NCBI GenBank assembly: GCA_029552745.1
Contig: JAKPDK010000042.1
Location: forward strand, 186,001 to 250,000
Reading direction: 5' to 3'
Source of the DNA: Candidatus Hydrogenedentota bacterium
GTDB lineage: Bacteria > Hydrogenedentota > Hydrogenedentia > Hydrogenedentales > SLHB01
Length of the DNA stretch: 64,000 nt
Shown: positions 1 to 56,282 of the stretch, piece by piece
How positions within the stretch are numbered: the first letter of the stretch is position 1
How the letters are laid out: every line of letters begins with the position of its first letter
The notes under the pieces: generated by a model
Told to the model about the DNA's origin: nothing
Database searches by the model: none
The model's input: the letters and a program-made list of their open reading frames with translations, nothing else
Translations under genes and position numbers: made by a program

Positions 1-1
1 G

Positions 2-217
2 AAAGAATTTGAAGATTCTGTATTACGTGTAGGACTGCCCACCGGCCACGGATTCGCCGACGCCCTCCGCCCCTTGATCAAGAAGTCCGAAGGGGTGTTC
101 CATGCCCTACTCGCTTCGCCCAAAACCGAATACTCCCAAGAAAACAAAAACGACGAACCCAGGTCTTCTGATACCGGTTCAAGTCCCCACAAGAATACTC
201 CAAACTCTTCGCTATAA
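2..217 (+). CDS. C-terminal end of an unidentified protein, cut by the window edge
   Basis: An open frame enters from the left edge and runs 71 codons to a TAA at 215-217. The visible part begins KEFEDSVLRVGLPTGHGFAD, continues with a helical LRPLIKKS stretch, and ends in a Ser/Asn/Pro-rich, probably disordered tail. It stops 17 nt before the terminase start on the same strand, so the two are probably co-transcribed. In tailed phages the gene before the large terminase is often the small terminase subunit, so that is a possible identity, but nothing in the visible residues proves it. Confidence 0.6.
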   Translation, partial: KEFEDSVLRVGLPTGHGFADALRPLIKKSEGVFHALLASPKTEYSQENKNDEPRSSDTGSSPHKNTPNSSL

Positions 218-234
218 CCGTCTCGACCAGTCCC

Positions 235-1698
235 ATGCGCTTGGATTTCAGCCGCGCCCGTACTCTCCTTCAAAACCACGGGTTCACGAAAACCGAAATC
301 GAACACTGGATCGCTCTTTACCACCGCGCCACATTTGCTCACCTCGTCTTCACAGATCGCAATGGAAAGCCTTGGCAACTCCGCCCTTATCAAAAAGACT
401 CCTTCGAGTCCTACGCCCTGCGAAAAGTACACTGTGACGGCAGAGACGTCGGTAAAACCACAGAAATAGAGCTCATCGCCGCGTGGGCATCGGTCGCCTT
501 GCCTGATTCCGAAATGCTCGTCGCAACACAATGCGAAAACCATCTTTACCCTTTAATGGACCGCATCTGCCGACGCATCCAAACCACCTCCGCACTGGCC
601 GGCAATCTTGTCGAACTGCACCGGTCCCCATCGTGGCACATGCGATTCCGAAATGGATTCGTTTTATGGGGACGTATCGCGGGACCACGCGGTATCAATT
701 TTCAGGGACTCCACGTGGACTGGCAAATCATCGACGAAGCCCAAGAAATGACCGAAACGGCATGGGGCGAACTTTACCAAGCCCTCAACGCCGGCGGCAA
801 GCGCTGGGTGTACGGCGTTCCCAACGGACTACGTAACACCTTCTACCGAATGACACAAATTGCCGACGCCGAACAATATAACTGGCCTTCAACCCTTCAT
901 CCCGATTTCACATCGGAAAAAGAAGAAGAACTTGCCCTCCTCTATGGCGGAAAAGACTCCCCGGGATACATCCACCGTGTTCTGGGACAACACGGTGCCC
1001 CGGCGCACGCTGTGTTCGACCTCGAAGATTACTTGGCTTGCGTTCAAGATTCCCTCGAGTTCTGCGAGATCTGCCTCGACGCAAACGACCACGCACTTGA
1101 CGTGCCCAATCCACCGCAAGGCGTCTACTACCTCGGATGCGACCTCGGTTACGCCCGCGACCCTTCTGAATTCGTCATCTACCGACTCGACGGCACCGAC
1201 TTGATTAATACGGCACACATCCACCTGGCAGCCGTCCCCTACCCCCGACAACAAGAGGTCATCCTGGAACTAGACCGCGCCTACAACTTCCACGCTATCG
1301 GAATAGACAACGGCAACAGCGGCCGGGCTGTCGCCCACGCACTCATGGGACTCGGCAGCGATTGGTGCGAAAAGGTGTTTCCCATCGATTTCGGCGGAAA
1401 CATCACGGTTGAGACGCTCCCCGATGGACGCCCGGACCGCCGCCCCGCGAAACAGTTCATGACCGAACTACTCACCCGCCGTATGGCGGAACGAACCATC
1501 ACGTTTCCTCGCTACCCACGACGCGAAACCCAATATGCCGCCCATACCTACTCCGTCACTTCCAACGGAAGAATCCTCTATGACAAAGGCGACGACCATA
1601 TTATCGACGCAGATCGGTGCGCCCTTCTCGCCCACTACCTTGACACCCACCGCGACCACTACCCCGTCACCCTGCGCCTGCGCCTCGAAAGTTTCTGA
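235..1698 (+). CDS. Phage-type terminase large subunit (DNA-packaging ATPase/nuclease)
   Basis: This 487-aa protein has the two-domain layout of tailed-phage large terminases, which translocate DNA into a procapsid and cut it. The N-terminal ATPase has a Walker A-type GRDVGKTT (about residues 69-76) and a Walker B IIDEAQ with Asp167-Glu168. The C-terminal RNase H-like nuclease has three acidic clusters: CDLGYARDPSEF (Asp303), GIDNGNSGRA (Asp358) and DDHIIDADRC (Asp458). All motifs are intact and the length is normal. No strong Shine-Dalgarno precedes ATG 235. It is the only packaging gene seen and is followed by a host-type gene, while the head and tail genes lie at 47.4-56.3 kb on the other strand. 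It may therefore serve those proteins as a dispersed system, or belong to another prophage left of the window. Confidence 0.88.
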   Translation: MRLDFSRARTLLQNHGFTKTEIEHWIALYHRATFAHLVFTDRNGKPWQLRPYQKDSFESYALRKVHCDGRDVGKTTEIELIAAWASVALPDSEMLVATQCENHLYPLMDRICRRIQTTSALAGNLVELHRSPSWHMRFRNGFVLWGRIAGPRGINFQGLHVDWQIIDEAQEMTETAWGELYQALNAGGKRWVYGVPNGLRNTFYRMTQIADAEQYNWPSTLHPDFTSEKEEELALLYGGKDSPGYIHRVLGQHGAPAHAVFDLEDYLACVQDSLEFCEICLDANDHALDVPNPPQGVYYLGCDLGYARDPSEFVIYRLDGTDLINTAHIHLAAVPYPRQQEVILELDRAYNFHAIGIDNGNSGRAVAHALMGLGSDWCEKVFPIDFGGNITVETLPDGRPDRRPAKQFMTELLTRRMAERTITFPRYPRRETQYAAHTYSVTSNGRILYDKGDDHIIDADRCALLAHYLDTHRDHYPVTLRLRLESF

Positions 1699-11722: not shown

Positions 11723-12583
11723 ATGGGCTTGTGGGATTGGTTCAGGGGGAATCGCGGCAAAGGGGTGGACGAATTAGCCCAACGATTAGGCATGACGGCA
11801 AATGATTTGAAGCGCATCCCAATTTCCTATAAGGAATTCAAAATTCCGAAACGCCGGGGTGGGGTGCGGGCGATTGCGGCTCCGTCAGTGGAGCTAAAAA
11901 AGATTCAACGAGTTATTCTCCGTCGTGTGTTAGGACGGTTATCAGCGCACCCAGCCGCTATGGGCTTTGAACGAGGACGCTCCATTGTATCTCATGCCCA
12001 GCGGCATGCAGGGAAACGCGTTGTGGTGTCGATGGACATTAAGGATTTTTTCACAAGTACCTCCGCCAACCGGGTGCAGAAATACTTTCGAATCATAGGG
12101 TGGAACCGAGAGGCAGCAGACCTTTTGACCCAGTTTTGTACTTATAACGGTGCGTTACCGCAAGGTGCACCGACCAGTCCCAAGTTGAGCAATTTGGTGA
12201 ACTATAGACTCGATGCGCGTTTGGCAGCATTGGCAGAACGTCACGGAGCCTGTTATTCGCGGTATGCGGACGATCTGACGTTCTCATTTGAGAATGATTC
12301 CAGACAAGAGATTCATGTACTCATCCGCGCGGTGAAGCTTATTCTCCAGGACGAGGGATATTCGCTCCACCTGCGAAAAAAATTGCGGATTCGACGCAGG
12401 TACCAACGGCAATTGGTCACGGGCCTTGTGGTGAACGATCGGCCCCAATTGCCCAGGACAGTCCGGCGATATTTGCGCGCGGTGGAACATGCGTTATCAC
12501 AGGGCAAGCCCGCGACGTTATCGCCTCAGCAATGGGAAGGGTGGCGAGCGTTTCGTGCCATGGTGGAAACGCCGCAGCGTTGA
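11723..12583 (+). CDS. Retron-type reverse transcriptase
   Basis: A 286-aa single-domain reverse transcriptase. Motifs in order: IPKRRGGVRAIAAP near residue 45, GFERGRSI, the retron-type HAQRH (variant of NAxxH), SMDIKDFF with the first catalytic Asp, LPQGAPTSPKLSN, SRYADDLTFS with Tyr181-Ala-Asp183-Asp184, and LVTGLVVN, the VTG motif typical of retron RTs in domain X/7. QGAPTSP argues against a diversity-generating RT, which carries a Q near the end of that motif, and no maturase or endonuclease domain follows. ATG 11723 is preceded by GGAGAAGG. It is transcribed behind the structured leader. A ribokinase gene starts 41 nt downstream; no classical retron effector is evident. Confidence 0.88.
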   Translation: MGLWDWFRGNRGKGVDELAQRLGMTANDLKRIPISYKEFKIPKRRGGVRAIAAPSVELKKIQRVILRRVLGRLSAHPAAMGFERGRSIVSHAQRHAGKRVVVSMDIKDFFTSTSANRVQKYFRIIGWNREAADLLTQFCTYNGALPQGAPTSPKLSNLVNYRLDARLAALAERHGACYSRYADDLTFSFENDSRQEIHVLIRAVKLILQDEGYSLHLRKKLRIRRRYQRQLVTGLVVNDRPQLPRTVRRYLRAVEHALSQGKPATLSPQQWEGWRAFRAMVETPQR

Positions 12584-21174: not shown

Positions 21175-21223
21175 GACCTCTCCCTCCACTGCACACCATA
21201 AGTGAACTGATCTTTTTGTGTAA

Positions 21224-39847: not shown

Positions 39848-40102
39848 CTAAGAGGGGATGACAGAAGAGCAACACCGCGGGGAGCCATCCCCCCGCGTGT
39901 GCAGGGGACATCGTACGGAGGGCTCGCGCCGCCCCTACATTGCTATCCCCCGGGTGCTGGGGGAATAAGGGGGGTATAATCAAAAGCCTACCTATGACGC
40001 CACGCGTCTGTGGCTTTCTCTATTACCTTCACAAAAATCTTCTCCTCAATTGCGCATCCGGCATAACAAAAAGTGCCAAAGGTACTGGACTTACATATTC
40101 TG

Positions 40103-40131
40103 TTGACGAAAACCTACCGCGGTTGTATAGT
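40103..40131 (+). promoter_or_regulatory. Strong predicted sigma70 promoter of the second beta-propeller gene
   Basis: TTGACG (40103-40108), exactly 17 bp, and TATAGT (40126-40131). The start falls ~38 nt before ATG 40177, with GGGGAGG between. Confidence 0.7.
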
Positions 40132-40176
40132 TTAAATGGGCGAAGGTATATAAATTTCCTACGGGGAGGTTGCAAC

Positions 40177-43100
40177 ATGAGTAAGAAAGATGTATTTCTT
40201 GCATTTCTTTTGGTTGAGACGTTCGCACTGATTGCCTGGGCAGCATCCTCCTCCGCTCCACTCAGCGAAACGCCCAATCCGAACACCTGGGTCACCGATG
40301 GGGCGGTTCATGCCATCGCTCGTACACCCTGTGCGACTTACATTGGTGGCAATTTCAAGTATGTCGGCCCCTATACCGGTTCCGGGGCGCCGGTGAACGC
40401 GACGACGGGGGAATTAGAGCCACCTTTCCCCCATTTTGACGGTATTATCTACGCGGTTTGTCCCGATATGACCGGGGGATGGTTTGTCGGCGGCTCATTT
40501 ACTCACGCGGACAAGACAAGCATAAGTGGGCTTGCTCACATCAATGCGGATGGAACCCTCGACACGACATGGCGCGCTGATACGAGCGGGACGGTATATG
40601 CCCTGAAATTGTATGGAACGACGTTATACGTGGGGGGCGAATTCACGACGATCGGCGGCGTAGCACGTAACCGGATTGCCGCGGTGGATGCAACTACAGG
40701 CAGCGTGTTGGCTTGGAATCCCGATGCTTCCCATACGGTACGAGACCTCTGGGTGACCAACAGCACCGTATACGCGGCGGGGGAGTTCACGTCAATCGGC
40801 GGCTCAACCCATAGTCGAATCGCTGCTATCGACCGAACCACCGGGCTGGCTGCCGCATGGGACCCCGCTGCCAACAACACCGTTACAAGCATATTCCTGT
40901 CAGGTGAAGTTCTGTATGCGGGAGGATATTTTACGCTGATAGGCGGGGAAAACCGGAATTACCTCGCTGCGTTTGATGTGACTTCCGGTACATTGACCGG
41001 CTGGGCACCATCGGCTGATCAGCCGGTGGAGGATCTCTGCGTTGTGGGAACCGAGGTCTATCTCGGCGGCGCTTTTACCTTCGTCGGTGGAATGGCGCGC
41101 GAACATCTTGCAGTCGTTGATGCAGCCACCGGCAGTGTCGTAGCAAAGATTTTCGATGCAAACGATAAAGTCATGACGCTCCTTCCTGTGGGGAGCGTTC
41201 TTCATGTCGGCGGGCTTTTCAACCAAATTGCCGGCGTTGCCCGTAGAGGTCTTGCGGCTATAAATACCGATACGGCAACGCTTGAACCTTGGACGGTGCA
41301 CACAAGCGGCAACGTTCTAGCGTTAGCATCAAACGCTTCGACGCTTTTTGTCGGTGGTGATCTGTACTCTATTGGGGGTGCCCTACGAAAAAATCTTGCC
41401 GCCTTTGACCCACAAACGTATGTCGTATTGCCTTGGCGTCCCGATGCCGATGACACGGTCCTAGCGTTGGCTTGTACGGAGGATGCCGTTTTTGCCGGGG
41501 GCGATTTTACAACTATAGGAGGTCAAACGCGTCCCCATTTGGCACGTCTGGAACCGCGCTTTGGCAACGCTACGTCCTGGAATCCCTTTCCGAACAACAC
41601 GGTAACGCGTCTGGCACTCTCGGGAAATCGTCTGTACGCTAGCGGGTACTTTTCGAATATCGGCGGCCAAAACAGGAATTATCTTGCCGTTGTAAATCCC
41701 GTATCCGGCAGCGTAGAAAGTTGGGATGCGCAGGTAAACTCATTTGTTGATGCCTTGGCGGTCACTACAGATACGGTCTACATTGGGGGCGCTTTTACAA
41801 GTGTCGGCGGTCAACCCCGCAATCGTCTTGCGGCAGTCGATGCCACGACCGGTTCGGTAAAAAGTTGGAATCCGGGTGCAGACAACATTGTCATTAGTTT
41901 CTACCTAAACGATAGTACCATGTTTGTCGGAGGAATGTTCCAAAACATCGGCGGACAATCACGGCGTTATCTTGCCGCATTGGATGCCACCACGGGCACT
42001 GTTCTTGATTGGAACCCCAACCCCGATGCTCATGTACTGGCTCTCGGCGGCTTTGGAAACACTTTGATTGTCGGCGGCAGATTTACCCAAATGGGTACGG
42101 AACCCATCCAGTTTGCCGCTGCCGTGGATATCGAAACAGGTTCCGCCCTGAGCTGGAATCCTGGGGCTAACCAAGAACTGCTAGCAATCGCTCCTGAAGG
42201 CAACAGCGTGCTTGTCGGAGGCCAGTTTACGATCATGGATGGCTCACCAAGGCCGTTCTTGGCGGAATTTCCAAAAGAAGCTGGAATGGTGGTGGTGAAC
42301 GTGACGCCGGAGAATGCAAAGTGGACATTGAATGGTCCAGATGGTTTTGAAGGAAACGGTAAAACGTATTTGGGGGATTGGACATTTCGAGGCGCACCTT
42401 TAGGTAGCTATTCCTGGCAGGGCGTAACCTTGTCCGGATATACGACACCCGCCCCGGAAAGCGCCAGTGTGACGGCGGTAGGGGAAAGAATCCTGTTTAC
42501 CAAGGTGTGGAGACAAACGGGAATCAGCAGTTTCTATGTTTCGCCATCAGGAAATGATGCCAACCCCGGCACCAGTCCTGATTCTCCCTTTTTAACCATT
42601 CCCCATGCCGTTGAGGTTGCGGCAAACGCCGGGGGCGGCATTCTCCATGTCGCTGAGGGGGTATATGCATTGAACGCGCCGTTGACCATCTCCTCGGGGG
42701 TACACGTGGTAGGAGCCAATCCGGAAGAGACGCAGATCGTGATTCAGCCGGGGCTTGTGAGTGGACGATATTGTGGCATCGTCCTTCAATCAGGAACGTC
42801 GATTCGTGAATGCAAGATTCTGGTACCGGCGGGTCTGGCTGGCATACCTAACTGTGCCCTGATTTATGTGCCCGATGCTACGAACGTAACGATAGCGCGG
42901 TGCGTCTTTGACGGCAGTGCCAATACCGAACCAGACACAATACCCACGACGGGTGCGGTGATCATGGGAGGAACGCGGGCAAGCGCGCTTGTGGCGGCAA
43001 ACTGTTTTACCGATCTGAGCTACGGGTTGGAATGTGTGGATTCCGGGGTGAACGTGACACGAAACCTGTTTAGAAGGATTCTGCGCGACGCCGTAACCAT

Positions 43101-43998
43101 TTATTCAAGCGGACGGAAGACCACGACGGTACCGACGCTCGGAGATAGCACGGACCCGGAACAGACGGGACTCAATGTATTTCGGGATATCGGTCTGCTT
43201 CGGGTAAAGAATCTCACAGGCGTGCCGGTGAAGGCGGAAGTGAACGATTGGGGTGCCTATTCGGAACAAGAAGTATCAAGTGGTGTCGAAGGAGACATAT
43301 CGACGGATAAGTTTGTCCAAAAATCCATTGGTCCCGGGTCTGTAGTGGCAGCCGTCGTAGATGCCTTAGGCACGCTCATCTCCGAAAGCGCGAATCCTTC
43401 CAGCCGCTTGCCAAGCCTAAACCTGACGGGCGAGTGGGACAGCAACTCCGAACGCTTCATTTTTGTCTCGGTGCCGCAGGGAGAGTGGCAAGTGGAAGGG
43501 TCGGCGACAGGGTATGTGACGAGTTCGGTGTCGGCGGTAGTCTCGTCATTAAGCGTTACCCCGGTAGTTATATCGCTGAATGCAGCGGGTAGCGGGGGCA
43601 CGGTGGTTGTCAATGTCACGCCGAACACCGCAAGTTGGACATTGGCGGGTCCTAGTGGGTTTGAGGGGAATGGTCAGACCTACACGGGTGACCGCACGTT
43701 TACGAATGCGCCAGTAGGCAGCTATACTTGGACGGGGAACAGTCTGGCTGGGTACACCACGCCGAGTCCCCAGACGCAGACGTTAGCGAGCGGCGGAACG
43801 ATCACTTTCAACAAGACATGGACGCAGTCGGGTACTGGTGGCGGTCGCGGCTGTACGAAACAGTTGGCGATGGGTGCGGAAGGTTCGCAGACGTATGCGA
43901 CATTGCCGACGCCGGCGGATGCGGCGCTGTTGCTGGGCAGCAGCGGTGTGCTACTGGGCTTGGCAGGAAGAATTACGAGCAAACGCCGCTCGAAATAA
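40177..43998 (+). CDS. Giant secreted beta-propeller / beta-helix protein with sorting-like tail
   Basis: A 1273-aa exported protein related to 18391-21174. A signal peptide (VFLAFLLVETFALIAWAASS) precedes ~14 propeller repeats of the LYVGGxFxxIGGxxRNxLAAxDxxTGxxxxWNP type (residues ~30-700). A PEGA-like module starts at ~703. A DUF1565-like right-handed beta-helix begins FYVSPSGNDANPG at ~785 and includes ISSGVHVVGANPEET. A second PEGA-like module is at ~1141. The C-terminus from ~1224 is GCTKQLAMG, SQTYATLP, a hydrophobic LLLGSSGVLLGLAG segment and KRRSK. ATG 40177 is fixed by GGGGAGG and by the promoter; the frame stays open further upstream but without a ribosome site. Likely surface-anchored; target unknown. 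Confidence 0.85.
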   Translation: MSKKDVFLAFLLVETFALIAWAASSSAPLSETPNPNTWVTDGAVHAIARTPCATYIGGNFKYVGPYTGSGAPVNATTGELEPPFPHFDGIIYAVCPDMTGGWFVGGSFTHADKTSISGLAHINADGTLDTTWRADTSGTVYALKLYGTTLYVGGEFTTIGGVARNRIAAVDATTGSVLAWNPDASHTVRDLWVTNSTVYAAGEFTSIGGSTHSRIAAIDRTTGLAAAWDPAANNTVTSIFLSGEVLYAGGYFTLIGGENRNYLAAFDVTSGTLTGWAPSADQPVEDLCVVGTEVYLGGAFTFVGGMAREHLAVVDAATGSVVAKIFDANDKVMTLLPVGSVLHVGGLFNQIAGVARRGLAAINTDTATLEPWTVHTSGNVLALASNASTLFVGGDLYSIGGALRKNLAAFDPQTYVVLPWRPDADDTVLALACTEDAVFAGGDFTTIGGQTRPHLARLEPRFGNATSWNPFPNNTVTRLALSGNRLYASGYFSNIGGQNRNYLAVVNPVSGSVESWDAQVNSFVDALAVTTDTVYIGGAFTSVGGQPRNRLAAVDATTGSVKSWNPGADNIVISFYLNDSTMFVGGMFQNIGGQSRRYLAALDATTGTVLDWNPNPDAHVLALGGFGNTLIVGGRFTQMGTEPIQFAAAVDIETGSALSWNPGANQELLAIAPEGNSVLVGGQFTIMDGSPRPFLAEFPKEAGMVVVNVTPENAKWTLNGPDGFEGNGKTYLGDWTFRGAPLGSYSWQGVTLSGYTTPAPESASVTAVGERILFTKVWRQTGISSFYVSPSGNDANPGTSPDSPFLTIPHAVEVAANAGGGILHVAEGVYALNAPLTISSGVHVVGANPEETQIVIQPGLVSGRYCGIVLQSGTSIRECKILVPAGLAGIPNCALIYVPDATNVTIARCVFDGSANTEPDTIPTTGAVIMGGTRASALVAANCFTDLSYGLECVDSGVNVTRNLFRRILRDAVTIYSSGRKTTTVPTLGDSTDPEQTGLNVFRDIGLLRVKNLTGVPVKAEVNDWGAYSEQEVSSGVEGDISTDKFVQKSIGPGSVVAAVVDALGTLISESANPSSRLPSLNLTGEWDSNSERFIFVSVPQGEWQVEGSATGYVTSSVSAVVSSLSVTPVVISLNAAGSGGTVVVNVTPNTASWTLAGPSGFEGNGQTYTGDRTFTNAPVGSYTWTGNSLAGYTTPSPQTQTLASGGTITFNKTWTQSGTGGGRGCTKQLAMGAEGSQTYATLPTPADAALLLGSSGVLLGLAGRITSKRRSK

Positions 43999-47425: not shown

Positions 47426-47833
47426 TTACCGGAAGGTTGATAGCGTTTGCCAGCCAGCATCGGAGTTGGACTTTGCCCGATTGACCAGGCGAGTAAGCCA
47501 CAGGTCGATGAAGGGTTCGCCCAGCACGCGCAGGACGTCGACGCCGGCCAGTTTTCCTAACGCGATAGCGCGTTCGCGCGCCATTTGGCGGGCGTTTCGT
47601 CGTTCGTCTTCTGTGAGTTTGCCGTCGGCGCGGGCGGCTTTAATGGCTTGTACGTAGGTGCGATAGGTTTCTTCGATAGCGGCTTCGAGGATTTCGAGCG
47701 CGCGTTGCAACCGTTGGTCTTGAAGGTGTGCAAACCATTTTCCGGTTTTGGCAAGCGCCCAGATGGCGGCGGCGAATGCGCCGACAAGAGTCAAGCCCTG
47801 ATCGCTATTGACGAAGTCGGTAAAGGTCATCAT
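47426..47833 (-). CDS. Holin candidate (LLH-holin-like)
   Basis: A 135-aa protein with one N-terminal membrane helix (about residues 12-32, GLTLVGAFAAAIWALAKTGK) followed by a long charged helical region and LAGVDVLRVLGEPFIDLWLTRLV near the end. The single N-terminal helix, helical charged body and the place directly after an endolysin gene fit LLH-type phage holins, which open the membrane for the lysin. GGAGAG precedes ATG 47833; a second ATG follows immediately. Last gene of the virion operon, 8 nt after the endolysin gene. Confidence 0.55.
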   Translation of the reverse strand: MMTFTDFVNSDQGLTLVGAFAAAIWALAKTGKWFAHLQDQRLQRALEILEAAIEETYRTYVQAIKAARADGKLTEDERRNARQMARERAIALGKLAGVDVLRVLGEPFIDLWLTRLVNRAKSNSDAGWQTLSTFR

Positions 47834-47841
47834 GTTCTCTC

Positions 47842-48336
47842 CTATCGGGCACGTTCGCGGTTGTCGGCGTGCACGTGCCCATCTTTGTAGTTGTCTTTCA
47901 CATAGTCAAAGTATTTTCGGCACACAGCGCCCAGTGTGGATTGGGGGACATGGGCGCGGTCGGCGGCGCTGACAGCGACGATGTCCACCGCAATACCGCC
48001 GTATTCGACGAGGTGTTTCGAGTCACGTGCCACGAAGCCTCCTTCATCGGTCCAGCCGTACCGCAGTGCGAGACGTTGCAGGTCGGCATGGGTACGGACG
48101 GCGTCGGTAATGATCACCCAGACTTCTTCGCCTGCCATGGCACAGAGTTCGCGGCGAACGCGTTCGAGCGATTCTAAGGTGCTGCGATGCACCATGGCGA
48201 GTCCGTCGGGGTTTTCGAATTCGCGTAAGCGAAAGTTGGCACAGGGTGCGCCGTCTACATCTATGAGCAGACGGACATTGTTTCTGTCCTTAGAGAAACG
48301 TGCGCGCATCGATGATGTATCCATTGGTGTTGTCAT
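47842..48336 (-). CDS. M15-family peptidase, probable endolysin
   Basis: A 164-aa protein ending in a D-Ala-D-Ala peptidase M15 domain. Zinc ligands are visible as SKHLVEYGGIAVDIV (His, then Asp seven residues later) and DGHVHADNR (His-x-His) near the C-terminus, with TDAVRTHADLQRLA preceding, a typical M15 core order. Phage M15 enzymes cut peptidoglycan peptide bridges for lysis. No signal peptide, consistent with holin-dependent release. The start is not firm: ATG 48336 overlaps the upstream gene by 47 nt and has AAGAGG directly adjacent; ATG 48324 and 48309 are alternatives. Confidence 0.75.
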   Translation of the reverse strand: MTTPMDTSSMRARFSKDRNNVRLLIDVDGAPCANFRLREFENPDGLAMVHRSTLESLERVRRELCAMAGEEVWVIITDAVRTHADLQRLALRYGWTDEGGFVARDSKHLVEYGGIAVDIVAVSAADRAHVPQSTLGAVCRKYFDYVKDNYKDGHVHADNRERAR

Positions 48337-48811
48337 CCTCTTGTTGAATGGTGTTCATTCCGGGGCGCAAATACAGGTGAGCCAGGGGAATGGCGTCGGC
48401 ATCCGGACTCGGCGGCGTAGGAGCGACGGCTTCTGAACCGGTTTTCACCGAAACGTCCCACGTGCTCAAGCAAGCTTGCACCAGGTCTATTCGTGCATGC
48501 TGTTGAGGTGGGATGATGACCGGCGTTGTGACGGGGGAAGCCAGGCGAAACGGCGTGTGCGAAATAAATGCCCATCCCGGTGCCACCCGCACCGCGAGAG
48601 TTGGCGGGTCGGTCGCCTGTACGGCCAAATCGTCGGGGGTTGCGCCGCGCAGGACGCCGTCGCCTCCACCCCATGCCAGGCTCAACACATGAAGAAGGGT
48701 TTCGAAGGCAGCCTCGATCCGGTCGTCCCATAGGTTTAATTTTGCGGAAGCTACGGGACGTTCCTGAAATGCCCAGCTGGTCTTGGTATAGGTTTTGCCT
48801 TTGATAGCCAT
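48290..48811 (-). CDS. Virion protein of unknown role, possibly tail appendage
   Basis: A 173-aa protein. Residues ~5-45 (SWAFQERPVASAKLNLWDDRIEAAFETLLHVL) are helical, and ~55-160 is beta-rich (LAVRVAPGWAFISHTPFRLASP, RIDLVQACLSTWDVSVKTGSE, IPLAHLYLRPG). The latter resembles the small beta domains found in tail-fibre or baseplate appendage proteins that report a list of value-type strands. No catalytic motif. AGGAG is 8 nt before ATG 48811. It sits between the tail hub and endolysin genes. Confidence 0.6.
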   Translation of the reverse strand: MAIKGKTYTKTSWAFQERPVASAKLNLWDDRIEAAFETLLHVLSLAWGGGDGVLRGATPDDLAVQATDPPTLAVRVAPGWAFISHTPFRLASPVTTPVIIPPQQHARIDLVQACLSTWDVSVKTGSEAVAPTPPSPDADAIPLAHLYLRPGMNTIQQEDDNTNGYIIDARTFL

Positions 48812-48837: not shown

Positions 48838-50577
48838 CTAGTCGAGATGAAATCCGAGATCCGTGCCCACGCCGTCATCGTCCAGCCGAAACTGGTAGAG
48901 AACGGTTGGTCCGGGTTGTCCGCGGACTATAAAGGTGAGCGGAGATTCGACAGAACGTAACGGCGAAGTGAATTGGACTTCGGTGGAAACATGTTGCCCT
49001 GCGATCTCATAACGGATTGAAGCCGCGCGGCCAACCACGCGGTCTGCGAAGCGGTCCGCCCATTCGCCGCTGATTCGGCGGATATATCGTCTTACCCGTT
49101 CGCCCCGCAGCTCGACGATGTCGCCTACGCGGAGTTGCGAGTTTCCGTGCGGAAAGAACAAATGACCGCGGGCGCTCGGATAGGCGATGTCATTGAGTAA
49201 ACCAGCCACGAGGGCATCGGCATCTTCGAGGCGGGACAACGCGTAATATTCGAGGCGTGCGGCACGGGCACCGTATTCCGCGATACTACCGGTCTGATCG
49301 TAGGTTTTTTGGAAAGCGCCCTCAATCGGGTTGCCAAGGAAAACGATTCGGTTCACCAAATCGGAGTCTTCTAAGCCCAAAGCGGCGTCGAGGTTGCCCT
49401 CATCTACGTAAAACACGTGGTTGGGTATGTCGGCGGAACGAAAAGAGACAGTCCCTTCAGATGAAATAGACCAGACGTAGCCGCCAGCGGCATAGGCGAG
49501 CGCCGTGAGCGATTCCAAGAGCCCGGCTTTCAAATCCACGTGGCGTAGATAGCCAGGCACGGGTTGAATCGTGTCAGTGGACAAGGCGCGGTAAGAAAAG
49601 AAATCCTTCAGTTCCAGTTCAGGTACCAGATAGCGTCCTGAATCATAGAGATAGACGTCCGCGTGTCCCAGTTCCACCATTGCCGCGTTGAAACACATCC
49701 CGCCGCCGTAGACAAGGGCAAGATATCGCCCGTAAGCATCTACACGGTCGTCAAACGCCCCGGATATGTCCCGATGTGGGTTTAGTTCGATGGCTTCGAT
49801 TCCATACGTCGTCAAGAGAGACTGTAGGGCGGCATGTGCGTTGTCGGCACGCCTCTTGTAAGCGCTGGTGAGATATTGCGCCTCGGTCCACGCAGCGACT
49901 TCCGGGTGTCGTTTGATGGCGTGGGCGTTGCGTGTGGTTTCTTCGGTATCAATGAGCATGAGACGAATGTCGGGCCAGGGCGTGCCGTCTACGACTAGAC
50001 CGGAAATGGTGTCTCCGTCCTTTGCGAACGCGCCCGTGAGGTCGATGCGGTTGGCGCCGACCCATTGTCCGTGCTCAATGCCGCCAATTTGAAGTTCGTT
50101 GTCCGGCCGTTTTCGCGAAATAAACTTGCGGTATTCACGGACTGCTCCCTCGGGAAACGCCGTATGGTCTATGCCGTAGTGCACGGGACCGAGCGTTCGA
50201 TTCACGGCATCCCGAACGATATGGTCGATAGATTGGTTCATGTAAGCCCGCGTTACCGCACCGTCGAATGTACCGGCATGACGTTCCGCAACGACCTCAG
50301 TGAAAAAGCGAAACGGCACATACCGTCCAAACACGAGGCGCTCAGTGTCTTCCCAATGGGGAATGACCGACAGCACGGAACCTTCGCAGATCAGGTCTTC
50401 TTCCAGATAGAAACGCACACAGTAAGCCGGGCTGATATCGTAGTTTGTCCCTTCGAGTAGAATCGCCATGCGGTCGGTCTTGTCCGGCGTACGGCAAATG
50501 ACCTCGATAAATGGGGCGTCTGTGATTTGATGGATACGACGGTTACCCGTATCAAGAATTTCGATCAGATAGTGCAT
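48838..50577 (-). CDS. Tail/baseplate hub protein with embedded staphylococcal-nuclease domain
   Basis: A 579-aa protein with an unusual fusion. The N-terminal ~165 residues (HYLIEILDTGNRRIHQI...) and residues ~330-579 (VNRIVFLGNPI, QLRVGDIVELRGERVRRYIRRI) look like a gp27/XkdQ-type tail hub. Between them (about 180-320) is a complete SNase/thermonuclease domain: DGDT with Asp189, IRLMLIDTEE with Arg205, Asp210 and Glu213, and DAYGRYLALVY with Arg284, matching Asp21, Arg35, Asp40, Glu43 and Arg87 of staphylococcal nuclease. All metal and catalytic positions are kept; the Arg205-Arg284 spacing is ~27 longer. ATG 50577 is chosen because a longer frame would overlap the distal tail gene. It could cut nucleic acid at the tail tip during delivery. 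Confidence 0.8.
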   Translation of the reverse strand: MHYLIEILDTGNRRIHQITDAPFIEVICRTPDKTDRMAILLEGTNYDISPAYCVRFYLEEDLICEGSVLSVIPHWEDTERLVFGRYVPFRFFTEVVAERHAGTFDGAVTRAYMNQSIDHIVRDAVNRTLGPVHYGIDHTAFPEGAVREYRKFISRKRPDNELQIGGIEHGQWVGANRIDLTGAFAKDGDTISGLVVDGTPWPDIRLMLIDTEETTRNAHAIKRHPEVAAWTEAQYLTSAYKRRADNAHAALQSLLTTYGIEAIELNPHRDISGAFDDRVDAYGRYLALVYGGGMCFNAAMVELGHADVYLYDSGRYLVPELELKDFFSYRALSTDTIQPVPGYLRHVDLKAGLLESLTALAYAAGGYVWSISSEGTVSFRSADIPNHVFYVDEGNLDAALGLEDSDLVNRIVFLGNPIEGAFQKTYDQTGSIAEYGARAARLEYYALSRLEDADALVAGLLNDIAYPSARGHLFFPHGNSQLRVGDIVELRGERVRRYIRRISGEWADRFADRVVGRAASIRYEIAGQHVSTEVQFTSPLRSVESPLTFIVRGQPGPTVLYQFRLDDDGVGTDLGFHLD

Positions 50578-50603: not shown

Positions 50604-51290
50604 TTACCACCAGCGATGGTGATAGGAAATAACTGCTTCGCCTACCGGATTCGTGGAAGATTCGTCGGAGTAGGTCCACACGGTTTCAGGTGAGACGATG
50701 CGCGGAAATTTGCCAACTACATAAGGCGTAACGTCGGTGGTATTAAGGATCACCTTCCCTTGAGATGCATCCAAACATAACGTAGCACCGGGAGATACCG
50801 TACCCGGAAAAACGATTCGTCGTTCGCCATCGCTGAATGAGGGGGCGACAAGTGAAGCGGCGGCGGTCAAGACGATGGTTGGCAGCGCGGGAGCGGAACC
50901 AATCGTGGAGAGGGCGAATGTCGCGCCGGATGAGGCAATTGCCCAGATTTGCTGTTCTATCGCGATGGATTCTTCCGTGAGGTCGCGCGACTCGAGAAGT
51001 AGTTCGAACGCGCCAAAACCGATCTCCATCCCCACGCGCCGCGTTCCCGCACAGCAGCGCACCCAGAGACGTCTTCCCTCGCGCAGAGACAGTTCGTTGT
51101 CGTAGGTGGTATGCGAGGCGGCATAATAGATAGCGTCCAAGACTTGCTCGACTTCTTCGACAGTGGGCTTGTCAGCAATGATCCCGCTTAACGTGATGCG
51201 GCGCCGGTTTCTGCCGCCGATTTCTTCGATCTGGTCTTTTATCTGTATTGTTGCCGGGTCAAAGCGATAATCATTGAGTTTGATCACCAT
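50604..51290 (-). CDS. Distal tail (Dit-like) protein
   Basis: A 228-aa protein. The N-terminal half (VIKLNDYRFDPATIQIKDQ... RRRITLSGIIA) resembles the tail-tube-like fold of distal tail proteins. The C-terminal half (ALPTIVLTAAAS, GTVSPGATLCLDASQGKVIL, VVGKFPRIVSPETVW) follows the galectin-like half with its GxxLxxDxxxxxV and FPxLxPG-type pattern. Dit connects the tail end to the hub. ATG 51290 is taken as start, overlapping the upstream stop by 20 nt; GTG 51332 is an alternative without a ribosome site. It directly precedes the hub gene, as in siphophages. Confidence 0.6.
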   Translation of the reverse strand: MVIKLNDYRFDPATIQIKDQIEEIGGRNRRRITLSGIIADKPTVEEVEQVLDAIYYAASHTTYDNELSLREGRRLWVRCCAGTRRVGMEIGFGAFELLLESRDLTEESIAIEQQIWAIASSGATFALSTIGSAPALPTIVLTAAASLVAPSFSDGERRIVFPGTVSPGATLCLDASQGKVILNTTDVTPYVVGKFPRIVSPETVWTYSDESSTNPVGEAVISYHHRWW

Positions 51291-51708
51291 AGGCTCTGTG
51301 TCCCCAAATGTCGTGGGAATTGGTGACGGCACTTACTTGTCTTGGCGGCACGGCTGTAAGGTACGGTTCCAACACATACCACCCGCTCTTTTCTGCCAAC
51401 GATGCGGCAGCGAGCAGTGCGCGAAACCGGTCGCCGGCTTCAATGCGGTTTGCCCCAATCGTTAACCGACGTTGACTTACCGCGTCAGCATATGCCAGTG
51501 ACCTTAAGACCTGAGCCCCCGCCAGGAGGGTTTCCCCCATGACAAGGGCATCAGGAAGCGGGTCCGTGTCCACGTCTGGATCGAGATAGCGAAGGAGTTC
51601 GGTGTGGGTGTCATGGATCGCGTTTTCAATGAGCGAAGGGGACACCGTCACGACATCGTGAAATTGAAATTTGGCGCGTACCCGCGTTTCGTTCGTAAAG
51701 GGGTTCAT
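51271..51708 (-). CDS. Putative head-tail connector protein
   Basis: A 145-aa mostly helical protein (PSLIENAIHDTHTELLRYLD, LPDALVMGETLLAGAQVLRSLAYADAV) with a beta-like C-terminal third. Size, helicity and place between the major capsid gene and the distal tail gene fit gp6/DUF1320-type head completion proteins, but there is no diagnostic motif. Its stop overlaps the next gene by 20 nt. GGAG lies 11 nt before ATG 51708. Confidence 0.5.
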   Translation of the reverse strand: MNPFTNETRVRAKFQFHDVVTVSPSLIENAIHDTHTELLRYLDPDVDTDPLPDALVMGETLLAGAQVLRSLAYADAVSQRRLTIGANRIEAGDRFRALLAAASLAEKSGWYVLEPYLTAVPPRQVSAVTNSHDIWGHRAYGDQTQ

Positions 51709-51768: not shown

Positions 51769-52818
51769 TTACGTCCAATCGCTTTGGACCACTACTCGGG
51801 CTTTTTCGTAAATGACGGCAAAGTCCGTCACGACGGTGAGGTACGTGCGGTCCCATTGCTGTTGAATGAGCTTGTCGCTTTCGACGAGCAGGTCTTGTTC
51901 CGTCAGTTTTTGAACGGCATATCCGGCGTCAAGGATCGTAAGCTTATGTTCTGGCTGGTCGGGCATGGGGATAAGCCGAACTCCCAATGGGGTGGGCAGG
52001 TTGCCGGTCTTGGCAAAGTCAAACAAGGCGGCATCGCGGAACTCATCCAACGACAAAATGGTGCGGCAGAGCGCCCCGCTTGCGAGCATGTGCGTGGGTG
52101 TAAAATAATGTTCCAGGGTTAGTTTCATGAACCCCGCCACAATGTCCTCATAACTCCAACTTCCTGCGGCAGCGGTGTTCAGGGTCAGAGCCGCCGTAGC
52201 GGCGCCTGAAGAGTCGCCGTACACGAGAACGTGGGCAAGTCGAGCGTCGAGGTTACGTCCGAGGCGTTCGCCCATGCGTTGCAAATGCACGCGCAACATG
52301 TCGATGGACATTCGCCGGATCGCCTCGTAGGAGGCAATCACGCCGCGTCCTTTCTTGTCAATGCGCACGATGCGGTCACCGTACGTAATTTCCGATTCGG
52401 GAATGGCGGCGCCTTCTGCAACACTGTGCAATTCTTCCTCGGAAGCGGCCTCTTGCACATACGGGACGTCGTACGCCGTACCGTCCACGGCCTCGTCGCG
52501 AATGATCAATTGCGGGTAAACCGGTTTTCGGCGCATGCCTTGCAGGACGGATTCGCGAACGATGTCGGGGAAAAGCCATTTGGCATTGGGATCCGATTGA
52601 AAAAATCGGTCGACGGTGATACGGTCGAGGTCAATGCCGAACTCCTGGGCACAGTAGTCCTGAACATTGGTACCCAGAGCACGGAAATACTGATGGTAGG
52701 ATATACCGAGCGTGCCTAACTGCTCGTATAGCTCGCGGCCGCGGGTTTGCCGCAACCTTTCTGGGTCTTGCGAAAGGAAAGCGGCACGCTCCCGCAAGCG
52801 GTCATCACGATATACCAT
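51769..52818 (-). CDS. Major capsid protein (HK97 fold)
   Basis: A 349-aa protein. After a helical N-arm (RLRERAAFLSQDPERLRQTRG) comes the pattern of HK97-like capsids. There is an extended E-loop region around YDVPYVQEAASEEELHSVAEGAAIPESEI, a long spine-helix candidate RRMSIDMLRVHLQRMGERLGRNLDARLAHVLVYG, and a P/A-domain with PTHMLASGALCRTILSLDEF and a YLTVVTDFAVIYEKARVVV C-terminal strand pair. It forms the shell of the particle. AGGAG is ~11 nt before ATG 52818. It lies just downstream of the DUF2190 gene. Confidence 0.78.
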   Translation of the reverse strand: MVYRDDRLRERAAFLSQDPERLRQTRGRELYEQLGTLGISYHQYFRALGTNVQDYCAQEFGIDLDRITVDRFFQSDPNAKWLFPDIVRESVLQGMRRKPVYPQLIIRDEAVDGTAYDVPYVQEAASEEELHSVAEGAAIPESEITYGDRIVRIDKKGRGVIASYEAIRRMSIDMLRVHLQRMGERLGRNLDARLAHVLVYGDSSGAATAALTLNTAAAGSWSYEDIVAGFMKLTLEHYFTPTHMLASGALCRTILSLDEFRDAALFDFAKTGNLPTPLGVRLIPMPDQPEHKLTILDAGYAVQKLTEQDLLVESDKLIQQQWDRTYLTVVTDFAVIYEKARVVVQSDWT

Positions 52819-52853: not shown

Positions 52854-53234
52854 TTACAAAAGTACATGCACAACGGATTGCACGGTATCGGTTTTCAAAA
52901 CGATGCCGGAACCGTCCCCGGATTGAGGCGCTTTCACTTTGCCCGTATCACTACTTGCGGTGATTCCCGTTTTGCCGTCAATCGTGGGCGCGCTACCGGT
53001 GTATGCAAAAACGCAAATGCCGCGCACCTTCACTGGAAGAGCCACGTTGTTTCCAGATGCAGCGGCCATGGCTTGTCCTAGCACAGGACTCTCTACCGCT
53101 GCCGTATTGGTCACGACGTAAGGGCCTACAAGGGAAACGGCATCCCCTTTTTCAATGTGCACCGTGCCGGAAGAAGGGGTACGGCAGGTCAAGATTAATT
53201 CGGTAATGGTTCCGCCAACATCACCAAAAGCCAT
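52854..53234 (-). CDS. DUF2190 capsid decoration/stabilising protein
   Basis: A 126-aa beta-rich protein. GTVHIEKGDAVSLVGPYVVTN, followed by VLGQAMAAASGNNVALPVKVRGICVFAYTG, is the typical DUF2190 pattern (gain of a stable trimeric beta-barrel that cements HK97-type shells). Many Gly, Ala and Thr, no enzyme motif. AAGGAG lies 10 nt before ATG 53234. It immediately precedes the major capsid gene. Confidence 0.8.
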   Translation of the reverse strand: MAFGDVGGTITELILTCRTPSSGTVHIEKGDAVSLVGPYVVTNTAAVESPVLGQAMAAASGNNVALPVKVRGICVFAYTGSAPTIDGKTGITASSDTGKVKAPQSGDGSGIVLKTDTVQSVVHVLL

Positions 53235-53330: not shown

Positions 53331-54038
53331 TTACTCCTCTGTGGAACGAAGGATATTCAGTCCTCGCTCCAAATGCGCGCCCTCTTCACTTGACACGAGC
53401 GTTTCGGGTATAGCCACCGGCGCGGGTGGGTACGCAAGGTCAAAGCGCACCTCAAACAGCCGCAAGAGGTCATGAATTTCGTCCAGTGTCAGGTTTTGGA
53501 GTGACTTGCGCCAGACGGCTTCATCAAAAGCCGTGCCATCCAACTCTTTGCCCAGTCCACAGAGCCGTGCCACAGCCCGTTGACGCGCGGTGACGCCGTC
53601 GGCAATGAGGCGCGCCGCTTCTCGTTCATTGACTTGGGTTTCCTGTAAGACAGCGCAAATGGCGCGCGCTATCTCCGGGGCAATGCCGCGGACGCGCTCG
53701 AATCGCACGAGACGGTCTTCCTGGCGACCCCGCAAGAGGACCGTGCGCGAGTCTTCTGTCCGCTCTATCCAGTGATACAACCCGGCGTCTTCTCGTATGG
53801 CGTGCCCGTCTTGATCTAGCCAATGCAAGGGATGGGGCATTTTCTCGGTTGCCCAAGGTTCCCCGGCAAAGACTTCTCCGGCAACTCGCCACCCCAGCAG
53901 GACGTCGCCGCACTCCAATCGTAAATCGAGGTGAGTGCCCTCTTCGTCGTTATGCCGATGAAGAACAAACCGTCCGTCTGGACATTGCTGTGCCTGCGCA
54001 CCGGTGTTATCAGGCAAGAGAATAGTCTTCCAGTACAT
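53331..54038 (-). CDS. LigD-type 3'-phosphoesterase-like protein in the virion operon
   Basis: A 235-aa protein. Residues ~20-115 match the LigD 3'-phosphoesterase domain, which removes 3'-phosphates and ribonucleotides from DNA ends. FVLHRHNDEEGTHLDLRLE has His29, His36, Asp38, Arg40 and Glu42 in place of the family's KHxxxxLHYDxRLE, followed by GDVLLGWRV and MPHPLHW with His69 where the family has EDHPL. The loop between His29 and His36 is two residues longer. The C-terminal half is helical (ARAICAVLQETQVNEREAARLI, LTLDEIHDLLRLFEVRFDL) and unrecognised. AGGAGG is 5 nt before ATG 54038. It may process DNA ends during packaging or delivery. Confidence 0.7.
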   Translation of the reverse strand: MYWKTILLPDNTGAQAQQCPDGRFVLHRHNDEEGTHLDLRLECGDVLLGWRVAGEVFAGEPWATEKMPHPLHWLDQDGHAIREDAGLYHWIERTEDSRTVLLRGRQEDRLVRFERVRGIAPEIARAICAVLQETQVNEREAARLIADGVTARQRAVARLCGLGKELDGTAFDEAVWRKSLQNLTLDEIHDLLRLFEVRFDLAYPPAPVAIPETLVSSEEGAHLERGLNILRSTEE

Positions 54039-54048
54039 GCGCCTCCTC

Positions 54049-54270
54049 CTAACGTAGCAATTGTTGTGTCAATGAGCCTGCAACGCCGATGAGATTGGCG
54101 ATGAGCAAGAGCACGCCGCGCGCGAGTACCGTTTCGAGTCGACGTACCCGTTCTCGAAGGTCTTCGAGGTTTTCTTCCAATTTTTGAAATTGGACGTCAT
54201 ACGCCATTTCATAAGGACAAGGGTTACATGCAGCAGCGGCTATTTCCTTTTTCCCACTGGACCGTTTCAT
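54049..54270 (-). CDS. Small XhlA-like membrane protein
   Basis: A 73-aa protein: a coiled-coil stretch (QFQKLEENLEDLRERVRRLETVL) followed by one C-terminal membrane helix (GVLLLIANLIGVAGSLTQQLL). This is the layout of XhlA-type accessory holins. A CNPCPY motif precedes the coil. GGAGGAAAG lies before ATG 54270. It is placed in the head-gene part of the operon instead of beside the endolysin, so a different membrane or particle role is possible. Confidence 0.65.
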   Translation of the reverse strand: MKRSSGKKEIAAAACNPCPYEMAYDVQFQKLEENLEDLRERVRRLETVLARGVLLLIANLIGVAGSLTQQLLR

Positions 54271-54289: not shown

Positions 54290-54979
54290 TCATTCCCTTG
54301 CCCACGTACGGGAAGTATGAAGTTCTATCGGGCGGTGATAGAGGGAACGGGCGGATTCGAGCGCATCAGGGAAGGAAGACGATCTGCCACCGGCGACAAA
54401 ACCTGTCCCTTGTGAGCCGGACGCAACAACAGAACCTTCGATAACTTCCAAGACGTTCCGCATGATGGAGTGACACAACACGTCGCCGTAGGTTCTGCCT
54501 GGGACGTGGTCACAGGTGCGAAGGTCGCGTCCGCAAACACTGCATTCGGGTGTCTGGAACGCAAATCCTATTGAAGTCTCTCGATAGACGCCGCCTTCGA
54601 TGTTCAGAATGAAAGAGGCATTGTCGGGCGTCCGCAAAACGTATACATCAGGGCGCACACTCGTGCGGTCGTCGTCACGGTGCAAGCGTGAGCGGAAAAA
54701 GGTGCCGCGAGGCAACGATCCGCGGAGGTCGTGACGTTCCATCAACGGCCTGCCTACCACGAGGCGGTTGATGGTCTCTAATTCTTCATCCGGAAAACGG
54801 CTGAAATGTCGATCGATCTGGTTGTGGCATAGGTCGAGCGTAAACACGGCGAACTCTTCGGATTTTAGGGGACGTAGGGCAAACTGATTCACCTCGTCCG
54901 CGGCGGACGAGTCTGTTGGGTGAACCCGCAGTCCGACAATACTCCCTTCTCTTCGGAAAAAGAACGGTTGCAGTTCCAT
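54290..54979 (-). CDS. Head maturation protease-like protein
   Basis: A 229-aa protein. The pattern LCHNQIDRHFSRFPDEELETIN, GRPLMERHDLRGSLPRGTFF, YRETSIGFAFQTPECSVCGRDLRTCDH and VLEVIEGSVVASGSQGTG follows head-maturation proteases whose catalytic His (in ERHD) and Ser (in TSIGF) lie far apart, and that carry a CxxC...CxH metal-like cluster. It would cleave scaffold and capsid delta regions. Located between portal and capsid genes, as usual. AAGGAG is 10 nt before ATG 54979. Catalytic assignment is inferred. Confidence 0.65.
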   Translation of the reverse strand: MELQPFFFRREGSIVGLRVHPTDSSAADEVNQFALRPLKSEEFAVFTLDLCHNQIDRHFSRFPDEELETINRLVVGRPLMERHDLRGSLPRGTFFRSRLHRDDDRTSVRPDVYVLRTPDNASFILNIEGGVYRETSIGFAFQTPECSVCGRDLRTCDHVPGRTYGDVLCHSIMRNVLEVIEGSVVASGSQGTGFVAGGRSSSFPDALESARSLYHRPIELHTSRTWARE

Positions 54980-55022: not shown

Positions 55023-56282
55023 TCAGGTATGGGGCGGTAGATCGATATTCAGCCGTTTTGCCGCCATTTCATGGTCAATAAATCCCTCTTTTTCCAGACG
55101 AATTGCATTTTCGATTTCTTTTCCGCGTGCCGTAGCTTCTTTGAGCGGGTCGACGGTGCGGTTATGACGCATACGGACATGGGCGCGCGCCTCCCCCCAC
55201 ATCAAAGACAACTCGAAGTTGTAGAGTCGTTCGAGCAGTCGTTTGACACTGCGGTTAACGGCTTCGACTTGGCGGTTGATGATTTCGAATTGTGCGGTAC
55301 CGTAAGTCTCCGTTGTGCCGTAGTTCCTGCCAACGAGGATAGGCATGAGATGCATACCCGTGATGATCTGCTCTTCGATTGCTTTGTGGTTTTCATAGAA
55401 GACTACTGACCGCTGGTCTCCCCGAATCAATTCCACGGCAATGTTGTCATAGGTGATCAAATTTTGGTCGGCTTCGAGCCCGCTCAAGCGGTCCCGAAGG
55501 TCCTGAAAATTGCGTTCCACCCTTTCCTGATAGCTTTCGGGCGACTCCCCGCGTTCCCGGGGTTCCGGCGTGTAACGGACGTGTAGTTTTGCCCATCCCA
55601 CATTTCGCATGGCTTTTGCCATGTCCTCAATAAGACGCTGCTGAATCTTGACCACAAACGGGATGGAGCGCAGCATCGACCTGCCATACGGATTGGTACC
55701 GTCTCTGTCGAGACCGACGTAAAGAAAGAGCTTCGACGGGAGTCGGATTTCTTTGCCGTCGTAAACCTGATACGGTTGAAGGGTTTGTTTTTCGCGGCGA
55801 AACCGGACGGTCCACACATCCACGGGGACTACGTCAAAGATGGCAGACCGATCGCGGTTGAGTACGATTTCTAGAGCGGCGGCGCCATACGTGAATAGGG
55901 AGGTGTAAAAGATATCGAGTAACCCTTCCATGCCGCGGTCGCCTGAATTGACCCGTCGGTCTAAATCGGCAATGAGTCGCTCGGCACGACGCCTTGCAGA
56001 TTCGGAAGAGGGTGCAAGAACTTCCACGTCATAACCCGTTTGGCACAGCCGTTTCCATGTCCACACGGCATCTGAAATGTCAGGAATGGCGTCACGGAGG
56101 AATCGGTATACCTGAAGCATCTCAAAGGGAGTGCCGTTCGGTAACCCGATGAAGGTGCCCGAGACTAGCCGTGAGAAATCTTCGGGGAGACTCGCCGTTC
56201 GGAACGATAATACGCGCGGGGAAGATCGGTGAGAGAGGGTAGGGGATTTTGAAGAGAAAAGGCGACGTAACCAACCGGACAT
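55023..56282 (-). CDS. Phage portal protein
   Basis: A 419-aa protein. Typical portal features: SDAVWTWKRLCQTGYDVEV near residue 75, GLLDIFYTSLFTYGAAALEIV, the wing region, a long stem helix, ITGMHLMPILVGRNYGTTETYGTAQFEIINRQVEAVNRSVKRLLERL, and the C-terminal helix. The portal forms the dodecameric ring through which the terminase packs DNA. Closest in style to DUF935/Mu gp29-type portals, though exact family is uncertain. GGGAG is 6 nt before ATG 56282. First gene of the virion operon, 66 nt after the LarA-like gene; no promoter is obvious between them. Confidence 0.78.
   Translation of the reverse strand: MSGWLRRLFSSKSPTLSHRSSPRVLSFRTASLPEDFSRLVSGTFIGLPNGTPFEMLQVYRFLRDAIPDISDAVWTWKRLCQTGYDVEVLAPSSESARRRAERLIADLDRRVNSGDRGMEGLLDIFYTSLFTYGAAALEIVLNRDRSAIFDVVPVDVWTVRFRREKQTLQPYQVYDGKEIRLPSKLFLYVGLDRDGTNPYGRSMLRSIPFVVKIQQRLIEDMAKAMRNVGWAKLHVRYTPEPRERGESPESYQERVERNFQDLRDRLSGLEADQNLITYDNIAVELIRGDQRSVVFYENHKAIEEQIITGMHLMPILVGRNYGTTETYGTAQFEIINRQVEAVNRSVKRLLERLYNFELSLMWGEARAHVRMRHNRTVDPLKEATARGKEIENAIRLEKEGFIDHEMAAKRLNIDLPPHT

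Follow-up and report, generated by a model that had tools for sequence, protein, structure and literature searches.

A tail hub protein with a complete staphylococcal-nuclease (SNase) domain inside it raises the question of which kind of particle carries such a protein and what its nuclease would do there. In this study, we analysed a window of 64,000 nucleotides from a Candidatus Hydrogenedentota bacterium, i.e. the whole stretch of DNA to which all coordinates refer. The hub gene lies on the minus strand, with its ATG at 50577 and its stop codon at 48838 in the ORF translation, while the plus strand across 48838-50577 is interrupted by many stops. The protein consists of an N-terminal part (residues ~1-160), the SNase part (~161-335), and a C-terminal part (~336-579).

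48838..50577, minus strand: hub with internal SNase domain, 579 aa (PF00565, AlphaFold2, Foldseek; 37/68 genomes)
49573..50097, minus strand: SNase domain in the hub, residues ~161-335, holding D187, D189, R205, D210, E213, and R284

The preliminary description of this DNA had reported a full SNase domain between hub-like halves, and three approaches agree with it. The Pfam SNase family (PF00565) matched hub residues 204-311 with an E-value of 1.1e-5 and 26.2 bits at a curated cut-off of 21. A phmmer search against the PDB aligned staphylococcal nuclease with two colinear hub segments, ~185-236 and 276-314 (best E 8e-6). Structure prediction, which had been suggested as a check, was carried out with AlphaFold2 on a homologue alignment of 25 rows and gave a model with a pLDDT of 88.9 and a pTM of 0.88. 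Foldseek matched this model to gp27-type hubs, namely the Anabaena contractile injection system 7b5h (E 3e-13), Mu gp44 1wru (E 4e-11), and T5 pb3 7zqp (E 8e-10), which identifies the two halves as hub fold. Staphylococcal nuclease 1ey6 was a separate match (E 6e-6, 26% identity over 155 columns, TM 0.63 when normalised on nuclease length). That a gp27-type tail hub contains an inserted SNase domain is thereby confirmed at the level of sequence comparison and predicted structure. Since the same fusion was seen again in 37/68 Hydrogenedentota genomes by profile search, it is not a product of chance.

The earlier assignments of Asp189, Arg205, Asp210, Glu213, and Arg284 to D21, R35, D40, E43, and R87 of staphylococcal nuclease were right, and Asp187 is the equivalent of D19. 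In the alignment of 25 hub homologues, R205, E213, R284, and D187 are invariant (25/25), D210 is kept in 24/25 and D189 in 23/25; the two homologues with altered Ca2+ ligands are those of genomes G043 and G005. For these 25 sequences, mean column identity reaches 0.76 in the SNase part, compared to 0.62 and 0.61 in the two halves of the hub. Across eight congeneric pairs, of which those from one genus are not all mutually independent, the hub dN/dS ranged from 0.11 to 0.19; the SNase part had the lowest value of the three hub parts in 7/8 pairs and a lower value than the N-terminal part in 8/8. By these sequence measures, the SNase domain is held more strictly by evolution than the remaining hub.

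It is conceivable that the insert is a purely structural OB-fold without catalysis, as OB-like domains are common in hubs and in many tail proteins, and the altered Ca2+ ligands of two homologues would fit. We regard this as improbable, in view of the invariant R35, E43, and R87 equivalents, the highest conservation of the protein in the SNase region, and the lower dN/dS than in the N-terminal hub part in all eight pairs. The hub is, as the sequences suggest, probably enzymatic. Because the active-site residues are conserved, any particle made from this locus would bear a predicted nuclease at its tail tip, as had been proposed from the first reading of the DNA.

The hub gene is part of a 9-kb block that runs from portal through protease, capsid, adaptor, Dit (distal tail protein), and hub to lysis genes, all on the minus strand. 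The portal gene is followed by the protease candidate, two genes for small or unknown proteins, and genes for a decoration-like protein, the HK97 capsid, the adaptor candidate, and Dit, after which come the hub-SNase gene and genes for a 173-aa virion-like protein, an endolysin candidate, and a holin-like protein.

55023..56282, minus strand: portal protein (Portal_Mu PF06074, E 9.7e-9; phrog_3753, E 1.6e-50)
54290..54979, minus strand: prohead protease candidate (phrog_16951, E 1e-35, function unlabelled)
54049..54270, minus strand: small protein, 73 aa (synteny conserved; no family match)
53331..54038, minus strand: head-operon protein, function unassigned (synteny conserved; no significant family match)
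52854..53234, minus strand: head decoration-like virion protein (phrog_4588, E 1.8e-7; synteny conserved)
51769..52818, minus strand: HK97-type major capsid protein (PF25209, E 1.2e-15; phrog_3922, E 2.9e-50)
51271..51708, minus strand: head-tail adaptor candidate, 145 aa (conserved in 27/28 compared loci)
50604..51332, minus strand: Dit (SPP1_Dit, E 2.5e-5, just under the curated cut-off)
48290..48811, minus strand: small virion/baseplate-like protein (phrog_9534 and phrog_20556, weak here; 49-64% conserved)
47842..48336, minus strand: endolysin candidate (phrog_465 endolysin, E 0.015 only)
47426..47833, minus strand: holin-like small protein (conserved final gene of the block; no PHROG match)

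Several of these roles are putative. The position between portal and capsid together with His/Ser motifs suggests the prohead protease candidate, and gene order suggests the adaptor candidate, for which no family match was obtained in Pfam or PHROG. For Dit, the AlphaFold2 model (pLDDT 90.7) matched SPP1 Dit 2x8k in Foldseek (E 1.9e-10, TM 0.65); an identity of this protein as tail tube was ruled out by the same structural match. A relative's copy of the protein at 48290..48811 matched phrog_9534 with E 4e-10 and phrog_20556 with E 3e-8. The endolysin candidate, conserved at 46-69% in part of the relatives, may be of M15 type according to its motif, and one N-terminal hydrophobic stretch together with the position would fit a holin for the last gene.

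In several relatives, an insert of ~270-620 aa with a signal-peptide-like start was observed in the head operon, which is absent from this genome. Its N-terminus is conserved as PRYLEEL..GGGYG..DGG.D, and one copy has a weak phage depolymerase-like C-terminus.

L041:7435-9108, L047:8031-9251, L048:848-2716, L050:8783-9586, and also L046: head-operon insert in relatives

All block genes that are recognisable by family are phage-derived. The block occurs once, on a host contig of 325 kb, and its GC content does not depart from that of the surroundings. A scan of the immediate flanking genes found cellular neighbours, i.e. a sodium symporter, an alpha/beta hydrolase, a lactate racemase, and a T2SS pseudopilin-like gene. 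In IMG/VR and INPHARED, neither relatives of the hub nor a virus close to the block were found, and the nearest viral capsids are 23-34% identical. The nearest viral large terminase subunit (TerL) is 39% identical.

Within the block there is no terminase. Its TerL gene is located ~46 kb away at the beginning of the window, directly preceded by a candidate for TerS, so that block and TerL loci together span ~56 kb of the window.

235..1698, plus strand: TerL, large terminase subunit (phrog_2, E 4e-22)
1..217, plus strand: 3' part of the TerS candidate (170 aa, start precedes the window; complete at L147:7705-8217)

The TerS candidate has no family match, and its role is assigned by its position just before TerL; its family is present at 20/29 compared TerL loci, a few genomes being counted twice. 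In genome G037, TerL lies directly behind the block. With the G037 protein as query, TerL was detected in 57/68 genomes and in 37/38 good ones, mostly with 60-78% identity and usually on a different contig from the block. The Walker-like and nuclease motifs are invariant. Pfam Terminase_6N misses nearly all TerLs of the element, phrog_2 finds those of some genomes, and the direct protein query finds most. The distribution of GTA genes over several loci has been described (PMC11841831).

Another TerL in the same genome, on contig C12, was rejected as partner of the block. This contig (L079, 39.9 kb) represents a separate phage, either co-binned or infecting, which has a TerL of its own and is unrelated to the element. 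Also, a gene for a lipoprotein-like protein with a 3D domain (PF06725), not seen in this genome, often precedes TerL in relatives, beside the TerS candidate.

L109:952-1395, and also L110, L112, L120, L148, and L152: PF06725 gene at TerL loci

Elsewhere in the window, a stand-alone reverse transcriptase is encoded at 11723-12583 (plus strand), with RT_XIII (retron-type RT) as top PADLOC match (E 7e-86). Two large repeat-rich proteins, probably surface proteins, at 18391-21189 (minus strand) and 39940-43998 (plus strand) appear to be paralogues and have a near-identical C-terminal motif, GGCTKQLAMG.EGSQTYATLP; the protein at 39940-43998 matches phrog_5490 with E 5e-166.

Genes for a tail tube and a tape measure are absent between adaptor and Dit. 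The gap between capsid and Dit is 0.4 kb here and is filled by one 145-aa gene, compared to ~9-10 kb in phage relatives: Enterococcus phage fHoEfm07, with related portal and capsid, has ~10 kb of tail genes between capsid and Dit, and ~9 kb separate the two in an IMG/VR contig. The tape-measure family PF10145 was missing in 12/16 genomes searched and sporadic in the other four. On this sequence basis, the tail tube is likely short or absent. A very short tail would in turn place the nuclease near the DNA exit of the particle.

The element is not confined to this genome. The hub gene was found in 36/60 genomes including this one, generally once in each, with full-length or nearly full-length matches of 39-53% identity. 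A scan of named genomes yielded 27 hub loci, all but two titled Candidatus Hydrogenedentota or Hydrogenedentes; of the remaining two, one is labelled 'uncultured bacterium' and one Rhodothermaeota. The capsid is present in 52/68 genomes and in 34/38 good ones, in single copy unless cut by a contig end and with 58-81% identity inside the phylum. The block is colinear across the Hydrogenedentota relatives in the synteny comparison. A split block was seen in genomes G009 and G021 (L032, L033), where portal, protease candidate, and the next two genes are located away from the capsid; each of these genomes carries two TerL copies.

Comparison with RpoB distances gave Mantel correlations of 0.86 for the capsid (p 0.0005; 0.83 for between-family pairs alone) and 0.87 for the portal (p 0.0005; between-family pairs alone 0.87). 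TerL (0.55) and the hub (0.52) followed RpoB less closely, and for the hub the value between families was 0.22 (p 0.07). In a tree built from three head proteins, eight changes suffice for the family labels, the fewest possible. The preliminary description had implied a single prophage with an ordinary tail; what we found instead is a single-copy element that is inherited vertically throughout the phylum; its terminase is unlinked, and its block lacks tail-tube and tape-measure genes.

Alternatively, the element could be nothing more than a widespread prophage family of these bacteria, ordinary or in decay. All of its recognisable genes are indeed derived from phages, and gaps are possible in MAG assemblies. 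One f4 copy with an internal stop and another copy that is split could be read as decay. This explanation is nevertheless very improbable, because the element is single-copy, colinear, under purifying selection, and diverges along with its hosts, and also because it has no close virus, an unlinked TerL, cellular flanks, and a block without tail tube and tape measure.

Natural variants without the tail tip are found in two families. Four f6 and several f10 genomes have kept portal, protease candidate, capsid, and lysis genes, with Dit and hub missing in between, and in the f10 genomes G061, G039, G033, and G044 Dit is kept and the hub is gone. TerL is retained in these lineages without tail-tip module or hub. 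The tail-tip module is therefore separable from the core for head formation and packaging, and the element can do without the nuclease. As seven other families and some of the f10 genomes carry the module, loss in f6 and f10 is favoured over gain, in a comparison that has no outgroup. Weak SNase matches in f6 were rejected as relocated hubs, since they belong to DNA methyltransferases that end in an SNase-like domain, which is an unusual fusion in its own right (L159:5163-6446, L160:7725-9041, L161:2406-3734). With full tail tips, Dit without hub, and heads with terminase alone, a natural series is available.

What would the nuclease do in such a particle? We give about an even chance to the reading that the hub-SNase protein is part of a domesticated GTA-like phage particle, in which it most likely cuts DNA at delivery. 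The cell would make small headful-packaged particles, released through lysis; headful packaging is carried out by TerL through the portal. Dit and hub would be positioned directly on the neck, with the nuclease beside the DNA exit. As SNase requires millimolar Ca2+, the domain would be silent in the cytoplasm of the producer and become active outside the cell or in the envelope of the recipient. There, trimming or nicking of the released fragment could provide an end or a single strand for entry via the ComEC channel of the recipient. DNA of known GTAs enters via ComEC/ComF, with one strand being degraded (PMC6209664).

ComEC was found in 65/68 genomes; as it is near-universal, its presence discriminates little and permits the delivery idea without lending it specific support. 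It was discarded as a discriminator with nearly every genome positive, and the count of SNase domains per genome proved equally uninformative. Against the delivery reading stand the lineages that retain head and TerL but have no hub, the weak tracking of RpoB by hub divergence between families, and the changed Ca2+ ligands of two homologues. In its most specific form, delivery would mean a phylum-wide GTA whose tail tube is reduced or missing and whose hub is a Ca2+-gated nuclease converting delivered DNA for competence import. This we put forward tentatively, as possible but doubtful; if true, the hub nuclease would be the particle-borne counterpart of the surface nuclease of natural transformation.

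The strongest rival to a role in delivery is that the nuclease of the same GTA-like particle clears extracellular DNA, such as genomic DNA released by lysis or biofilm matrix, and lets particles diffuse to recipients. Secretion is typical of SNases, and the phylum has SNase domains in proteins other than the hub. Also, a Ca2+-dependent tailspike of the R. capsulatus GTA breaks down biofilm and increases gene transfer (PMC13420450). However, the inside of a hub by the DNA channel would be an odd site for a matrix-degrading enzyme, for which spikes or fibres are usual, and we consider this explanation unlikely.

The particle might also be a weapon, whose tail-tip nuclease enters competitor cells and degrades their nucleic acid, given that the hub fold is common to contractile injection systems and effector-carrying VgrG spikes. 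Here, however, the SNase domain is built into the hub and is not a released cargo, no immunity gene was recognised next to the hub gene, and portal, TerL, and capsid imply DNA packaging. Moreover, the sequence is conserved phylum-wide, while toxins often diversify, so that a weapon has little probability. A delivery particle of the GTA type remains the reading that we prefer, and the union of particle and nuclease in one protein would make the processing of GTA DNA on arrival testable by one point mutation.

Among known proteins, the hub halves have their fold in common with the hubs T4 gp27, Mu gp44, and T5 pb3 and with VgrG, in none of which we know of an SNase domain. The relation to gp27-type hubs is given by the fold (7b5h, 1wru, 7zqp), and the hub gene adjoins that of a structurally confirmed Dit. 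The insert has the OB-fold of the SNase family with equivalents of D21, R35, D40, E43, and R87, and thus fold and catalytic residues in common with staphylococcal nuclease (thermonuclease), from which it differs by its place in a virion protein, an identity of ~26%, and a longer stretch between the conserved halves. In the literature on Hydrogenedentota GTAs and SNase hubs, the sole precedent found was RBTH_07687, a protein of the phage-like region BtI1 from B. thuringiensis israelensis, which is reported to combine a gp27-type hub with an SNase-like domain as well (PMC2147016). There, the SNase-like domain is N-terminal and belongs to a long-tailed phage lineage with a tape measure (PMC2147016), whereas here it is internal and part of a domesticated element. 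The earlier statement that a hub with an internal SNase was not known to have been described therefore has to be restricted, as an N-terminal SNase-like domain on a hub was already on record with BtI1 (PMC2147016).

In an intact siphoprophage, the genes of head and Dit are separated by those for tail tube and tape measure, which are lacking there in the present block. For GTAs, which are viriforms, six features have been defined (PMC9662315). Three of them are found by sequence in this element: structural proteins derived from caudoviruses, according to families and the Foldseek folds of hub and Dit; full endogenisation over several loci, with cellular flanks and TerL ~46 kb off or, in most relatives, on other contigs; and mainly vertical inheritance with host co-diversification, as seen from capsid and portal against RpoB and from family clustering, and less strongly from TerL and hub. 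The other three in the definition are a cargo of largely random host DNA, a head too small for the complete genome of the GTA, and delivery of the cargo to other cells. With three of six features, we call the element GTA-like and not a proven GTA (PMC9662315).

RcGTA, BaGTA, and the Brachyspira GTA are alike in consisting of caudovirus-derived, endogenised genes in split loci, inherited vertically and co-diversifying with the host; the present element, known from its genes alone, differs from them by the new phylum, the nuclease hub, and a block without tube and tape measure. FpGTA of Faecalibacterium is an experimental precedent for particles without a visible tail and for two separated operons (PMC12946183). 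It resembles the present element in these two unlinked operons, in lysis genes, and in a TerS without obvious DNA-binding domain; its particles, in which a tail seems to be lacking or very short and which contain ~9 kb of packaged DNA, have been demonstrated (PMC12946183), whereas here the short tail is deduced from genes. FpGTA is described as a homologue of short-tailed phages, and the text consulted mentions no nuclease hub (PMC12946183).

We judge the locus, from its sequence, to be a GTA-like element with a shortened tail and a hub that probably acts as an enzyme, in a phylum that is new for such elements. Few lineages are known to have GTAs; an uncultured phylum with a near-universal GTA-like element would now join them.
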